Assembly (NCBI RefSeq): GCF_022482365.1
Contig: NZ_JAKVPE010000001.1
Coordinates: 1,798,001 to 1,862,000 of the forward strand
DNA from: Limosilactobacillus sp.
Lineage (GTDB): Bacteria; Bacillota; Bacilli; Lactobacillales; Lactobacillaceae
Reading direction: 5' to 3'
Length of the DNA: 64,000 nt
Shown here: positions 21,766 through 27,593 of the stretch, in pieces
Position numbering within the stretch: position 1 is the first letter of the stretch
Layout of the letters: each line of letters starts with the position of its first letter
Made by a program: the position numbers and the translations under genes
The notes under the pieces: generated by a model
What the model saw: only the letters and a program-made list of their open reading frames with translations
Told to the model about the DNA's origin: nothing
Database searches by the model: none

Positions 21766-21905
21766 CAGGACACCTTCCTAACTTTGAGATGGGAGCAAAA
21801 CTCCCTCACTTATAAATAGACGTAAAAAATGAGTAATTATCAGAAACAACATTTCGACGCCTTTAGATTGTGAAAAACCAGTCTGCCATTTCAGACGAGA
21901 CTTGG

Positions 21906-21938
21906 TGAAACATGTTTCATCAAATGAAACGTGTTTAC
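21906..21938 (+). promoter_or_regulatory. Two tandem palindromes upstream of ptcA
   Basis: TGAAACATGTTTCA (21906-21919, perfect) and TGAAACGTGTTTAC (21925-21938, imperfect) are spaced 19 nt centre to centre, about two helical turns, so a protein could bind both on one face. They lie about 110-145 nt before the ptcA start. The RpiR-family regulator of the cluster is a candidate binder, as RpiR sites are often TGAAA-type palindromes; CcpA is less likely since the CG core is missing in the first copy. Confidence 0.5.
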
Positions 21939-21993
21939 AGCTCTTAAACCTCGTGGCAACGGCGTTGAAAACGGTTCCTTATTTTGGCGGGGT

Positions 21994-22011
21994 ACGGTAT
22001 TATAAAACCGT
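21994..22011 (+). promoter_or_regulatory. Probable -10 region of the agmatine operon inside a short inverted repeat
   Basis: TATTAT/TATAAA lies between ACGGT and ACCGT arms. I find no good -35 box at 16-18 nt, consistent with activator dependence. The rest of 21766-22049 holds no ORF. Confidence 0.4.
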
Positions 22012-22049
22012 CAAGAGAATAACAAATCAAAATTAAGGAGTTGTTTCAC

Positions 22050-23099
22050 ATGCCAAAGCGTGATTTTATTGATACTTATACATACAGTAAGGAAGAGCTG
22101 CAATTCATGGTTGACCTTGGCCTGAAGATCAAGGCAGCAATCAAGGATGGCTACTACCCGCCGCTGCTCAAGAACAAGTCGCTGGGGATGATCTTTGAAC
22201 AGACCTCCACGCGGACTCGGAACTCAGCTGAGGCCGCAATGACTGAACTGGGTGGCCACGCTTTGTACCTGGCACCAGGTCAAATCCAACTCGGTGAGGG
22301 TGGCCATGAAACCTTGGATGACACCGGTCACGTTCTGGGCCGTCTGCTCGACATCATCGGCGCCCGGGTAAACCGTCACTCCGAGATTACCGACCTTGGT
22401 AAGTATTCCAAGGTGCCGGTTGTCAACTTCATGAGTGACCAAAGCCACCCAACCCAAGCCCTGGGTGACCTGACCACCATTGAGGAACACATGCCAGCGG
22501 GCAAGCAGGTTGAAGACTTGAAGATCGTCTTTGTTGGTGATGCTACCCAGGTTTGTGTATCCACCCTCTACTTCGCCGTTCAGATGGGGATGGACTTCGC
22601 CCAGTTTGGCCCAAAGGATCACCAAATTCCAGCCGACGACCTGAAGCGGGCACAGAAAATTGCCAAGGAGACGGGAGCAACCATCACCCTTTCCGAAGAC
22701 GAAAGCGTTCTGGAGGATGCCGACTTCGTTTACACCGATGTTTGGTACGGCCTGTACGACAAGGAACTGCAGAAGGACGAATACATGAAGATCTTCTACC
22801 CAAAGTACCAGGTCAACGACGAGCTGCTTGCCAAGACCAACAACCCGGACGTGAAGGTAATGCACTGCCTGCCAGCTAGCCGGGGTGAGGAAATCACCGA
22901 TTCCGTTCTTGATGGTGAGCACTCCATCGTTTGGGACGAAGCAGAAAACCGGAAGACGGCCATGCGGGCAATCTTTACCTACCTGCTGAATCCTAACATG
23001 AAGATCGCTACTAAGGCCTTAGCCGATAAGTACCAAGGTGAATTGGACCACATGTTGGCACACGAACCATACCGTACTAACGAAGAATTAAACAAGTAA
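22050..23099 (+). CDS. ptcA: Putrescine carbamoyltransferase
   Basis: A 349-aa transcarbamylase. The carbamoyl-phosphate site is STRTR (residues about 53-57), the second is HPTQALGD, and HCLPA is the ornithine/putrescine-side motif. The YGLYDKE stretch and the C-terminal helix with [10 protein letters not shown] are as in putrescine- rather than ornithine-specific enzymes. It phosphorolyses N-carbamoylputrescine to putrescine and carbamoyl phosphate. ATG 22050 follows AAGGAG at 9 nt. It is the first gene of ptcA-aguD-aguA; carbamate kinase, needed to make ATP from the carbamoyl phosphate, is not in the cluster. Confidence 0.93.
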
Positions 23100-23139
23100 T
23101 AGTCTGCACGAGTTAAATTGAAATGGATGGGTGATACAA

Positions 23140-24498
23140 ATGGATGCAAAACCAAAGAAACAATTCCGTTTGTTTGACGCCGTCTTGATGTCCGTAGTTG
23201 TTATTATGACGGTCGAGTCAGTCGCACCCGCAGCCGCCATTGGTCCATCACAGTTCTTCTGGTGGATCTTTCTCCTGATCTTCTTCTTTCTGCCGTATGG
23301 ATTGGTTTCCTCAGAATTGGGGACCGCCTATACCGGTGAAGGGGGCATCTATGACTGGGTTAAACAAGCATTCGGCGACCGCTGGGGTGGCCGCTTAGCC
23401 TACCTCTACTGGATTAACTATCCACTCTGGATGGCGAGTCTAGCCGTACTGTTTACGCAAATTGCCGACCAAGCTTTCCAAATCCACATGGGAATCTGGG
23501 TGACGATGATTATCCAGCTTATCTTTGTCTGGGCCGTCACCTTGATCGGTAATAAGCCGGTATCCGAAAGTAAATGGCTGACCAACGTTTCTGCCATTTT
23601 CAAGATCATTATTATTCTCTCCCTGGCTGGCCTGGGAATTTACGTTGCAGTTACCAAAGGGGTCGCAAATGATTACAGCGGTACTAACTTGTTGCCAAAG
23701 GCTAATCTGAGTAGCCTGAGCAACCTGTCAGTGATCATCTTTAACTTCCTGGGCTTTGAAGTTGTTGCTACCATGGCTGACAACATGGATGATCCAAAGC
23801 ACCAGATCCCGAAGGCCACCATTTATGGTGGGATCCTAATTGCAATCTTCTACCTGTTAGCAGCGTTTGCGGTCGGCGTTGCAATTCCAACGTCGAAGCT
23901 CTCTGCCTCCAGCGGCCTGCTTGACAGTTTCCTCCTTCTGATGGGCAAGATGAACTGGTTTATCGTCATGGTCGGGATCATGTTTATGTTCATCCTGGTC
24001 TCGGAGATGATCTCCTGGGCGTTAGGGATCAACTACGTGGCCGACTATGCCGCAAAGAACCATGACCTTCCCGCAGTTTTTGCCAAGGAAGACAAGAACG
24101 GGATGCCGATCGGTGCCGGAATCGTTAATGGCATCATTGCTTCCATTCTCTGCATTGCCGCCCCATTCATTCCAAACCAGGACATTTTCTGGGCCTTCTT
24201 CTCCCTGAACGTCGTGACCCTGATTCTTTCCTACGCCTTGATGTTCCCAGCATTCTGGAAACTGCGTAAGATTGACCCAGATCACGAGCGGCCGTTCAAG
24301 GTCCCTGGTGGAAAGGTGATGATCAACCTCTTCACCTGGATTCCAGAAATCCTGATTATTCTGAGTGTTCTCTTAACCATTTTGCCAACCGGTAAGGCTG
24401 ACTTTAACAGTAAGATGCCGGTCCTAATCGGGACAATCGTTGCCCTGATTTTAGGTGAGATTATCGTTCGTGTTGCACAAAAGGGAAAAATTAAGTAA
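23140..24498 (+). CDS. aguD: Agmatine:putrescine antiporter (APC family)
   Basis: A 452-aa APC-superfamily exchanger with 12 membrane helices. The N-terminal [20 protein letters not shown] and [20 protein letters not shown] are the substrate-site helices 1 and 6. Its place between ptcA and aguA identifies it as the agmatine/putrescine exchanger, which imports agmatine in exchange for putrescine and so helps raise pH. ATG 23140 is preferred, with GGGTGAT a few nt upstream; GTG 23131 is the alternative. It is 40 nt downstream of ptcA. Confidence 0.88.
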
Positions 24499-24515: not shown

Positions 24516-25610
24516 ATGAAAACTTTAAAAAGCAGTCCTAAAAAAGATGGTTTCCGCATGCCAGGAGAATTTGAACCACACAAAGGTGTATACATTCTGT
24601 GGCCACAACGTCCTGACAACTGGCGTAACGGAGGAAAGCCGGCTCAAAAGACCTTCGTTGAGGTCGCCAAGGCCATCTCACAATTTGAACATGTGACGGT
24701 TGGGGTTAATGATGACCAGTACGAAAACGCTCTGACAATGCTGCCTGATAATGTGGAAGTGGTCGAAATTTCAAACGACGACTCCTGGGTTCGTGACTGT
24801 GGTGCCACCTTCGTCAAGAACGACAAGGGCGACATGCGGGCCGTTGATTGGCACTTCAATGCCTGGGGTGGCTTGGTTGATGGCCTTTACTTCCCGTGGG
24901 ACAAGGACGACCGGGTAGCCTCCAAGATGGCGGAACTGGAAGGCGTCGATCGCTACCGCCTGAATGACTTTACCCTAGAAGGGGGCTCCATCCACGTCGA
25001 CGGCGAAGGTACCCTGGTAACCACCGAAGAATGTCTGCTTTCCGAGGGTCGGAACCCACAATTGTCCAAGGAACAGATTGGTGAAGTCTTAAAAGAATAC
25101 TTGAACCTTGATAAGATCATCTGGCTGCACAAGGGGATTTACAACGATGAAACCAACGGGCACGTTGACAACATCTGTAACTTCGTTGAACCGGGTCACG
25201 TTGTCCTGGCTTGGACCGATGACCAGTCCGACCCACAATACGAGATTTCTCGTGAAAACCTTGAGATTCTCGAAAACTCAACCGATGCCAAGGGTCGGAA
25301 GATTAAGGTTACCAAGCTCTACGTTCCAAAGCCGGTGCTGATCACGAAGGAAGAGTCCGAAGGCGTGGACGCGGTTGATGGTACCCTGCCACGTCAAGAA
25401 GGCGACCGGCTTGCCGCTTCATACGTAAACTACTACACCGCAAACGGCGGGATTGTCTTCCCAACGTTTGGTGACCCAAACGATGAAAAGGCAAAGGAAA
25501 CCCTGCAGGCCTGCTACCCAGACCGAAAGATTGTTGGTGTGCCAGCGCGTGAAATCTTGTTAGGTGGTGGGAACATCCACTGCATCACCCAGCAGGTTCC
25601 GAAGGCATAA
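24516..25610 (+). CDS. aguA: Agmatine deiminase
   Basis: A 364-aa enzyme of the guanidino-group-modifying (peptidylarginine deiminase-like) family. It hydrolyses agmatine to N-carbamoylputrescine and ammonia. The catalytic set is intact: WVRD (R93, D94), LEGG (E155), NGHVD (H216) and the nucleophile C356 in [11 protein letters not shown]. It starts 17 nt after aguD, with AGAAAGGATC upstream, and ends the ptcA-aguD-aguA operon at a bidirectional terminator. The converging gene pair behind it includes a paralogue lacking C and H, which makes this the only visible active deiminase. Confidence 0.96.
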
Positions 25611-25637
25611 ATTAACTTCATAAGGACTTTGCATTAC

Positions 25638-25687
25638 AAAAGCCAGCGACGAAGAGAAATTCAATTCTCCTCGTCGCTGGCTTTTTC
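25638..25687. terminator. Bidirectional terminator between the two agmatine operons
   Basis: AAAAGCCAGCGACGA pairs with TCGTCGCTGGCTTTT; T-runs occur on both strands. Confidence 0.9.
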
Positions 25688-26492
25688 AATGCTGCGAATT
25701 CTTTTTGAGGTTAAAGTCGTGGCCACCGTACGACTCAATGTATTGGTACAGGATCAGTTCCATAATGGCGATAACCGAGATTCGAGACCCGATATCGGTT
25801 TCATTGATCGTGATTTTGTCAGTGAAAATATAGAAATTCACGTCGCTGAGATTTTGGATGGTGTTGTTGTCCGCTTCGGTAATGGAAACGATCATGGGCG
25901 AGATTCCCTGGCGGATCAGGCCATTAATCAGTTTAACGAATTCGGCATTTTCGCCGTTGAAACTCATGATGAAGACGAGCGAGTTATCCGTGATCTGCTG
26001 CTCGGCCAGTCGCCGATAGTCCTTGTCGGGCGGGAAGGAGACGTTGAAACCGGACATCGAAAAAAGATACTTGATATATTCGGTGAGGTGCTTGGTGGTG
26101 TCCTTGGCAAAGAGAAAGATGTGGGGATGCTCGGCCAATTTGTCGGCGATCCGTTTCAGCTGATCAGCCTTTAATACCCGGATGCTTTCCTCGATGTTTT
26201 TGGTGTATTCGTTTCGATAATCTGTTTGTGGGACTGTAAAGGGATTTTCTTGTTCTTCCTGATGGTTCATCAGTGTAAACTTGATCACGGTGGTGAACTC
26301 ACTAAAGCCAGAAAAGCCTAGCTTGCGGACAAAACGCAGGAAGGTTGCGGTGGAAACGTAGCACAGCGACGCAACTTCCCGGATGCTTTTCCCATTTATT
26401 TCATCCATGTTCTTGACGACAAAGTCAAACAGCTTGTGTTCGTTGTCAGATAGATCTTTGAGACGCGGGCCAACGATGTCAAAAAAATTCAT
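25686..26492 (-). CDS. RpiR/MurR family transcriptional regulator
   Basis: A 268-aa regulator. Residues 1-77 form the RpiR helix-turn-helix (REVASLCYVSTATFLRFVRKLGF); residues about 110-260 form an SIS sugar-isomerase-like domain (HIFLFAKDTTKHL, LVFIMSFNGENAEFVKLI). SIS domains normally bind phosphosugars, but in this place the ligand could be tied to agmatine metabolism. It begins 12 nt after the aguA-like pseudoenzyme gene, with GAGGTGAT as ribosome site, so the two are one operon. As I recall, Listeria has a similar order (second aguA followed by an RpiR-type gene). Regulation of the ptcA operon is inferred from position. Confidence 0.88.
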   Translation of the reverse strand: MNFFDIVGPRLKDLSDNEHKLFDFVVKNMDEINGKSIREVASLCYVSTATFLRFVRKLGFSGFSEFTTVIKFTLMNHQEEQENPFTVPQTDYRNEYTKNIEESIRVLKADQLKRIADKLAEHPHIFLFAKDTTKHLTEYIKYLFSMSGFNVSFPPDKDYRRLAEQQITDNSLVFIMSFNGENAEFVKLINGLIRQGISPMIVSITEADNNTIQNLSDVNFYIFTDKITINETDIGSRISVIAIMELILYQYIESYGGHDFNLKKNSQH

Positions 26493-26504
26493 AGAATCAC
26501 CTCG

Positions 26505-27593
26505 TTAGAATTTTGGCAAGGTATTTACGATTGTATGCAGTCCACCACCGCCGATCAGAATCTCACGAACAGGGAAGCCGATAATTTGCCGCTGGGGGAA
26601 GAGTTTTTCTAGTTGCTTTTGCACCACTTGATCTTGGGGATCATTAAATAAGGGGAAGATGATTGCGCCATTGATTGTAATGTAGTTGACGTAGGTTGCC
26701 GTTAACCGCTGTCCCACCGCCCGGGGCATGAGGCCGTTAACAAGGTCAATCCCCTCGGATTCGGCTTTGGTTAGGCACTGGGTAGCTGGCACGACTAATT
26801 TATGAATGGTAAATGAGCGTCCCTTGGCATCCGTTGCCGTGCTGAGAATCTGGAACGCTTCGTGGCATGCGGCGTATAGCGGATCGGTTTGGTCGTTGGT
26901 CCAGGTTAGGACGATTTCTCCGGGACGGACGAAGTTGATCATGTTATCGATATCGCCGCCAGTTTCGTCGAGGAAGTAGCCGTGTTTGAGCCAGATGATC
27001 TTTTTGGCGCCCAGGTATTGCCTGAGGACCGTTTCCATAAATTTCTTCGACATATTGGCGTTGCGATCCTCGGCCAGCAACACATCCTCAGTAGTCACGA
27101 TGGTTCCTTCGCCGTCCGTCATGATCGAGCATCCTTCAAGAACGATGTCACTGGAATAGTAATCGAGCTTTTCCAGTTCGGCCGTCTTGATTGCCAGCTG
27201 ATCATCCTTGTCCCAAGGGAAAAACAGGCCGTCCAGGAGCCCACCCCAGGCGTTGAAGCTAAAACTGACGGCTCGGACCCGTTGGTTGTTGTCCACATAG
27301 TAGGGAAGGGTGTCCTTTGCCCATGCGTCATCGCTGCTCATTTCGACAACCTGGGCGATCCCATCGAGTTTATCCTTAGCATTGATGTACTGGTCTTCAT
27401 TGACCAGCATCGTGACCGGTTCGAAATTGCTAATCAACTTGGCCAGCTCGGCGAAGGCCTTTTGGGCAGGCTTTCCCCCGTTGCGCCAATTATCTGGTCG
27501 CTCCGGCCAAATCATAAAGGCCTTTTTCTGGGTGTTAAATTCGGCCGTCATCTTAAAGTGATCGCGTAGTGGTGTTGAATCTTTGATTTGCAT
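26505..27593 (-). CDS. Agmatine deiminase paralogue, probably catalytically inactive
   Basis: A 362-aa homologue of the active AguA at 24516, alignable end to end with almost no gaps (shared [35 protein letters not shown]). Three catalytic positions are changed: the nucleophile Cys is T354 (GGGGLHTIV), the catalytic His is D214 (GGDIDNM), and Arg of WVRD is Lys (WAKD). The general-base-type Glu (E153) and Asp94 remain. It should not hydrolyse agmatine but may still bind it. The frame is long and uninterrupted, so it is maintained, not a decaying pseudogene. It is in an operon with RpiR, which suggests a regulatory or sensor role. Confidence 0.9.
   Translation of the reverse strand: MQIKDSTPLRDHFKMTAEFNTQKKAFMIWPERPDNWRNGGKPAQKAFAELAKLISNFEPVTMLVNEDQYINAKDKLDGIAQVVEMSSDDAWAKDTLPYYVDNNQRVRAVSFSFNAWGGLLDGLFFPWDKDDQLAIKTAELEKLDYYSSDIVLEGCSIMTDGEGTIVTTEDVLLAEDRNANMSKKFMETVLRQYLGAKKIIWLKHGYFLDETGGDIDNMINFVRPGEIVLTWTNDQTDPLYAACHEAFQILSTATDAKGRSFTIHKLVVPATQCLTKAESEGIDLVNGLMPRAVGQRLTATYVNYITINGAIIFPLFNDPQDQVVQKQLEKLFPQRQIIGFPVREILIGGGGLHTIVNTLPKF

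Follow-up and report, generated by a model that had tools for sequence, protein, structure and literature searches.

The closest described relatives of the system examined here are agmatine deiminase (AgDI) gene clusters accompanied by a regulator of the RpiR family; the papers concerned are cited by accession. An RpiR-like AguR regulon for agmatine utilisation has been predicted in Lactobacillaceae, the regulator being co-localised with the agmatine genes (PMC3616900). L. sakei, P. claussenii and L. monocytogenes likewise have RpiR genes near their AgDI clusters, for which the passages available give no functional data (PMC3796520). In Listeria monocytogenes, lmo0040 encodes an agmatine deiminase, AguA2, that is reported to be non-functional, and lmo0041 a member of the RpiR family (PMC7698193). 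Both the non-functional AguA2 of Listeria with its RpiR neighbour (PMC7698193, PMC2996996) and the RpiR-type AguR regulon are thus already known. In Enterococcus faecalis, the activator of the same pathway is a LuxR-type AguR (PMC3796520), an unrelated protein of single-AguA loci. The locus described here instead combines rpiR with aguA2, a gene for a second AguA with altered catalytic residues. It lies in a 64,000-nucleotide (nt) stretch of a Limosilactobacillus sp. genome, hereafter the window (GCF_022482365.1, contig NZ_JAKVPE010000001.1, positions 1,798,001 to 1,862,000, forward strand).

An earlier note on this DNA, made from the sequence alone, had stated that Listeria carries an inactive second AguA near an RpiR-type gene. 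This holds for the gene order, lmo0040 being followed by lmo0041, but needs correcting as to the lesions. We made the comparison through Listeriaceae relatives, which have the clade, the Gly157 to Cys replacement and the gene order of the window's AguA2 but, unlike it, keep His216 and Cys356; judging by them, the L. monocytogenes protein should keep His and Cys as well. In the passages available to us, PMC7698193 proposes no regulatory role for AguA2, and PMC3616900 is silent on AguA2, on an operator layout with a fixed -10 spacing and on Enterococcaceae and Listeriaceae. In a search of titles, abstract openings and passages of a few papers, we found no paper that links a dead AguA2 to the function of RpiR; supplements and regulon databases may record the operator.

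We consider it on balance probable that AguA2 is a dead paralogue that senses agmatine for the RpiR-type regulator, in the manner of yeast Gal3. We infer that AguA2, with the carboxylates that hold agmatine retained and the groups for turnover lost or blocked, could bind its ligand, agmatine or else the product N-carbamoylputrescine, but not consume it. In the ligand-bound state it would touch RpiR and switch it on. RpiR itself, placed by the model on a tandem operator that precedes the ptc-aguD-aguA1 promoter by a constant distance, would probably activate transcription.

Catalytic losses and a retained pocket in AguA2

The aguA2 gene (26505..27593, minus strand; open reading frame (ORF), family profile, alignment and fold model) encodes 362 amino acids (aa). 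Its stop is followed after 12 nt by rpiR (25686..26492, minus strand, 268 aa), and the two-gene unit converges with ptc-aguD-aguA1 on the plus strand. The ORFs, the frame open over 362 codons, the 12-nt gap and the convergence with the active operon lie where the earlier note had placed them. Aligned end to end with AguA1, AguA2 is identical in 192 of 363 columns (53%). It scores 510.7 bits with the family model TIGR03380 (agmatine_aguA, cut-off 381.8) and 340.5 bits with PF04371, and stays under the cut-off of the subfamily model NF010070 (470 vs 483 bits). Its fold model, built from 28 sequences, has a mean predicted local distance difference test score (pLDDT) of 87.6 and a predicted template modelling score (pTM) of 0.89, is weakest at residues 37-40, 117-120 and 122-126, and finds its best Protein Data Bank (PDB) match in chain 2jer_B, the E. 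faecalis AgDI (TM (query) 0.94). By sequence and pentein fold the protein belongs to the agmatine deiminase family (EC 3.5.3.12), but it lacks the catalytic Cys and His. All the residue differences listed in the earlier note are confirmed by the full-length alignment with AguA1, namely Lys for R93, Asp for H216 (D214, codon at 26952..26954, minus strand) and Thr for the nucleophile C356 (T354, codon at 26532..26534, minus strand), with Glu153 kept. Further changes, absent from the earlier note, are Cys for Gly157 (C155, codon at 27129..27131, minus strand) and Gly for both N214 and N353; the Cys155, Asp214 and Thr354 assignments are backed by the tally of relatives as well. The carboxylates of AguA2 equivalent to known agmatine contacts (D89, D94, E210, D216) are present and invariant in the clade. 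Judged from these residues, AguA2 is a homologue of agmatine deiminase and not a working member of the family.

Relatives were collected from 50 genomes of the genus (two matched, both with the aguA2-rpiR pair), 397 of the family (65 matched including the window's; the regions of 56 others were read and eight weak matches left out), 398 of the class (50 matched including the window's; 16 read), 105 Enterococcaceae (46 matched; 23 with the two-AguA pair layout, all read, and 23 others, 17 read) and 36 Listeriaceae (14 with AguA, nine having two and five having one). An order-wide search with RpiR covered 395 genomes (48 matches at E up to 1e-40), and of the 592 relatives in a named genome collection the best 80 were kept, giving 78 loci. 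Family names of many searched genomes were deduced; for Enterococcaceae, identity with named records decided the assignment. A script extracted gene order and key residues. The resulting 265 distinct AguA proteins comprise 81 AguA2 beside rpiR, 83 AguA1 elsewhere in rpiR loci and 101 others, groups that were set by gene position and not by residue. An rpiR (>40% identity) counted as adjacent if it lay on the same strand and either overlapped the AguA gene by at most 250 nt or followed its stop within 200 nt; long overlaps are an artefact of taking the first possible start codon. Identical proteins were counted once, pieces shorter than 230 aa were left out and the broken copies L052, L080, L086 and L246 were kept in.

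The set of AguA adjacent to rpiR coincides exactly with the set that has Cys (76) or Ser (5) at position 157 (81 of 265); none of the 184 others carries either residue, all having Gly. Tabulating Cys and His in such homologues, as the earlier note had advised, shows that 71 of 81 have lost His216, which is Asp in 65, Ala in four, Asn in two and still His in ten, and over half (43/80) have lost Cys356, replaced by Thr in 27 and Ser in 16, kept in 37 and missing in one. Elsewhere, His216 is present in 184/184 and Cys356 in 181 of the 182 AguA covering the site. By contrast with these losses, D89, D94, E155, D211, E212, D218, R293 and H355 are invariant in all AguA2 covering each site. Trp91 is replaced by Phe in 19/80 and Asn353 is changed in 28/80. 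Among 59 positions that are near-invariant in other AguA, 37 are retained at >=97% in AguA2. The positions retained in fewer than half of AguA2 are 93, 112, 157, 196, 216, 356 and 358-360, so the heaviest losses cluster around the catalytic groups. In MtAIH, mapped onto AguA by our own alignment, the equivalents of Asp89 (via a water) and Glu212 hold agmatine at its amine and those of Asp94 and Asp218 at its guanidine; the equivalent of Arg293, on the lid, bonds to the amine-binding carboxylate (PMC6447857). Since a Cys to Ser mutant of C. jejuni AgDI was crystallised with substrate (title of PDB entry 6b2w), a dead pocket can hold the substrate.

The lesions are stacked by family. Among the twelve positions scripted, the nine distinct Listeriaceae AguA2 (three from named Listeria species, six from other genomes of the family) depart from active AguA solely at 157 and at 95, a variable site. 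In most Enterococcaceae AguA2, His216 has also changed to Asp (in a few, Asn), and most Lactobacillaceae AguA2 further add Cys356 to Ser or Thr, leaving the replacement of Gly157 by Cys or Ser as the sole change common to all. Because of this stacking, and because three Listeria AguA2 branch first in the tree described below, inactivation would have begun with the Gly157 step and continued with His and Cys by lineage. Residue 157 is reportedly discussed by Cheng et al. (2013).

Two side observations concern AguA proteins of other layouts. L249, L160 and L200 have AguA in single open frames of 775-826 aa, that of L249 apparently fused in frame with aguD. In a Clostridiales locus (L194:9588), an RpiR gene (36%) is followed after 9 nt by the gene of a very distant AguA-like protein (26%), which has intact catalytic residues; the order of the two genes is reversed there.

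Selection on AguA2 and co-evolution with RpiR

In a midpoint-rooted tree of 74 chosen AguA sequences, AguA2 forms one clade (25 rows, support 99/90), in which the three Listeria proteins are the first branches, and AguA1 forms another (23 rows, 97/99). AguA2 may be derived from AguA1 or be older, the midpoint root fitting both. The window protein falls in the AguA2 clade, has Gly157 replaced and has rpiR directly downstream. Ratios of nonsynonymous to synonymous change (dN/dS) were computed from unsaturated pairs only (14 printed, seven distinct), the window's copy being too distant from its relatives to be included. Over the seven pairs they are 0.028-0.124 for AguA2, 0-0.044 for AguA1 and 0.005-0.062 for RpiR. 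AguA2 is under purifying selection and less constrained than AguA1; its values lie far below the ratio near 1 that the earlier note had taken to speak against its reading. The lesions are neither chance nor decay, because the frame is open, the relatives share the class of lesion and dN/dS among them is far below 1.

In 80 of 81 cases, aguA2 runs into rpiR or stops <=17 nt short of it; the exception, L052, is broken and lies on a short contig. In three loci of a single clade (the window, L034 and L035), the pair has moved as a unit out of the usual operon order, in one or two events. No natural fusion of AguA2 with RpiR was noticed, though no systematic search was made. Over 58 loci, AguA2 distances follow those of RpiR with a correlation of 0.885. 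The partial correlation, in which the distances of ptc, aguD and aguA1 are held constant, is 0.62, a value reached in none of 1000 permutations, and the nine other gene pairs of the ten compared give at most 0.37. In 32 non-redundant loci, the partial correlation is 0.55 (0/1000 permutations), with the other pairs at <=0.36.

The regulator and the operator upstream of ptc

The sugar-phosphate loop of SIS domains has the form SxSGxT. In the RpiR of the window, which places itself in the RpiR/MurR family by HTH_6 (PF01418) and SIS (PF01380) domains both above cut-off, this loop reads SFNGEN, versus SSSGST in 4IVN and SLSGST in 8TX9, and so departs from the sugar-phosphate form. Across 71 AguA2-linked RpiR, the second Ser of the loop is found in five; the Thr never occurs, and its position is mostly taken by Asp (60). 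These changes suggest that the SIS domain of RpiR has lost sugar-phosphate binding.

Upstream of ptc, palindromes were counted in up to 15 of 53 regions, versus <=4 in shuffles, and resolve to AACNNGTT-N11-AACNNGTT plus flanks. With <=2 of 12 mismatches, this tandem operator is found in 41 of the 53 non-redundant RpiR-type upstream regions (L. grayi included), in four of 57 lone-type controls, which are redundant, and in 26 of 1060 shuffles; two of the 41 matches (L129, L056) look mis-registered, and the remaining 12 regions have three or four mismatches. L339 and L340, where the aguA2-rpiR pair is present, show no operator site at <=1 mismatch. In the window, the predicted RpiR site lies at 21905..21939 (plus strand), its AACNNGTT-N11-AACNNGTT core at 21909-21935. 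A -10-like hexamer, TATTAT, follows 62 nt past the core (21998..22003, plus strand). This spacing is conserved across families: the hexamer stands 62 nt after the operator in 31 of 41 regions and 63 nt in three, and 200 shuffles never gave more than four at one offset. The hexamer is kept in 18 of 23 loci whose spacers are <60% alike. The scan upstream of ptc found no consensus sigma-70 promoter, which carries little information as shuffles average just 0.6. The pattern TGAAACATGTTTCA occurs at <=1 mismatch in one place of the 2.34-Mb genome and at <=2 mismatches at one site in the window, with 0.33 expected by chance. We had also considered an operator shared upstream of aguA2 in the window, which was rejected on this single site.

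The rigid distance from operator to -10 suggests an activator. RpiR is the presumed binder of the operator, since the operator keeps company with RpiR-type loci; at the two of 17 lone-type Enterococcaceae loci that were checked for a regulator, both had a LuxR-type gene (GerE domain). Two other motifs were seen in these regions. The CcpA-type consensus is TGWAANCGNTWWCA. Sites of this type (<=2 mismatches) are present in 46/53 upstream regions versus 138/1060 shuffles and, in the window, at 21966-21979, between the operator and the -10. The palindrome TACTCGAGTA is exact in 10/53 upstream regions and 1/1060 shuffles, and in L131 and L132 lies downstream of the predicted -10.

The operon facing the aguA2-rpiR unit begins with a putrescine carbamoyltransferase-like ptc gene (22050..23099, plus strand; TIGR04384 496.7 bits, cut-off 500). 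Its ATG at 22050 is preceded by AAGGAG; the ORF list begins at the TTG at 22041. The aguD gene (23131..24498, plus strand) encodes an antiporter-family protein that reached the cut-off of no NCBIfam model and, from its position, is presumed to be the agmatine/putrescine antiporter. The aguA1 gene (24516..25610, plus strand) encodes an agmatine deiminase with intact catalytic residues. A strong hairpin (25638..25685, no strand assigned; -32.5 kcal/mol, z -9.5) between the convergent aguA1 and rpiR, missed by the consensus terminator scan, is likely a bidirectional terminator. The interval after aguA1 is short in the window (25611-25685) and in L034, L042, L055 and L126, with just 23-187 nt before the next gene of the set; many relatives have about 1 kb there, room for a carbamate kinase gene.

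Competing explanations and comparison with known systems

The earlier note had proposed a pseudoenzyme kept as an agmatine-binding partner or sensor of RpiR. The conserved pairing with rpiR, the catalytic loss with the pocket kept, purifying selection and RpiR-specific co-evolution agree with this proposal, whereas agmatine binding, the contact with RpiR and the control of transcription are parts that we still infer. Several points weigh against a sensing role. The operator and -10 patterns were derived from the same sequences in which they were later counted. Some other gene pairs likewise exceed every permutation, with weaker correlations (ptc-aguD 0.37, RpiR-aguD 0.19), and joint transfer of neighbouring genes could inflate the correlation of AguA2 with RpiR; this concern is countered by the neighbours aguD and aguA1, which reach a partial correlation of just 0.15. 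The alternative that survives best, unlikely as we judge it, is that AguA2 joins AguA1 as a regulatory or structural subunit, the deiminase being tuned in mixed oligomers and the adjacency of rpiR reflecting no more than an old operon order. Paralogous chains often co-assemble, and every genome in which AguA2 was read also has an AguA1, in most cases immediately upstream. The distance-correlation test disfavours this explanation, however, as the partial correlation of AguA1 with AguA2 is 0.08 (160/1000 permutations as high) versus 0.62 for AguA2 with RpiR, and AguA2 stays with rpiR, not aguA1, in the three loci where the pair has moved.

Further points come from loci without AguA2. There, too, the SIS loop is altered (TYGGHD in L. 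grayi; SYTGSN in L090 and SYSGEE in L171, both distant RpiR near AgDI genes); the change is therefore not tied to AguA2 and arose independently. Five of the 14 AguA-bearing Listeriaceae (L150, L343-L346; L. grayi and four others) have rpiR and an active-type AguA without AguA2, and a whole-genome search of L. grayi found a single AguA only. Two of the five (L150, L346) retain the operator, and the remaining three show no site at <=1 mismatch. RpiR can therefore work without AguA2 as a partner, and AguA2 may be helpful rather than essential. In such loci RpiR must have another way of sensing, perhaps by the active AguA in the manner of the two-function yeast Gal1. The losses of AguA2 in Listeriaceae may have been one or two, the base of the RpiR tree fitting both. 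Broken or truncated rpiR copies were also seen at AguA2-less loci (L341, L342, L072), without any AguA there in L341 and L342. A second, likewise improbable explanation is that RpiR senses a signal of its own through SIS and that AguA2 serves elsewhere, for instance as an agmatine buffer or sink. The five AguA2-less genomes with RpiR fit it, as do the SIS domain, still above the Pfam cut-off, and its changed loop, which occurs with and without AguA2 and so may hold another ligand. Yet none of the 71 AguA2-linked RpiR has an unaltered sugar-phosphate loop, and a buffer needs neither adjacency to rpiR nor co-evolution with it.

A sensing role must also accommodate the ten AguA2 (nine from Listeriaceae and L340) that keep His216 and Cys356, whose inactivity is not evident from their sequences; for these, the evidence is the published finding on L. 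monocytogenes. These ten of 81, together with the 37 of 80 that keep Cys356, fit a third explanation, which we find a shade harder to credit than the second: AguA2 may still catalyse a reaction of its own, with agmatine or some other guanidine as substrate, above all in the proteins that keep both residues. The L. monocytogenes aguA2 is, however, reported non-functional as an agmatine deiminase in the passages available (PMC7698193), and the replacement of His, Cys, Asn353 and Arg93 by different residues in different lineages, under selection, misfits one conserved reaction. Finally, AguA2 evolves faster than AguA1, one copy (L080) is split by a frameshift and two (L052, L086) are broken in incomplete assemblies, but a decaying, functionless duplicate is very improbable and was rejected given dN/dS of 0.03-0.12, the invariant pocket and conservation as one clade across several families.

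We thus return to AguA2 as a probable sensor for RpiR. If true, this role would supply a clear example in bacteria of the dead twin of a metabolic enzyme serving as inducer sensor, with the inactivation steps visible between lineages, and it would give a role to the non-functional AguA2 of Listeria. It would also explain how agmatine is sensed by RpiR-type AgDI operons, the putrescine makers of bacteria in fermented foods. Regulators with a SIS domain are generally assumed to be sugar-phosphate sensors, and control of such a regulator by a pseudoenzyme would be a novelty.

The nearest parallel is found in yeast. Gal3, a galactokinase paralogue without activity, acts there as the galactose sensor of Gal80/Gal4. 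AguA2, too, is a paralogue of the first pathway enzyme that is under selection and, to judge from its residues, dead; it retains the pocket and has co-evolved with RpiR, and it would bind the pathway substrate and contact the regulator in a ligand-dependent way. More tentatively, with the chances a little short of even, AguA2 may play the part of Gal3 in several families of Lactobacillales: disabled at first by the replacement of Gly157 by Cys and later deprived of His and Cys in turn, it would be a receptor for agmatine dedicated to an activating RpiR, while the SIS domain of RpiR would have exchanged a sugar-phosphate ligand for a protein partner. Unlike AguA2, Gal3 is eukaryotic and acts through Gal80/Gal4, and the proteins are unrelated. 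In the Gal3/Gal1 system, as in the one proposed here, a paralogue of the first pathway enzyme has become specialised as a co-inducer (PMC3048525).

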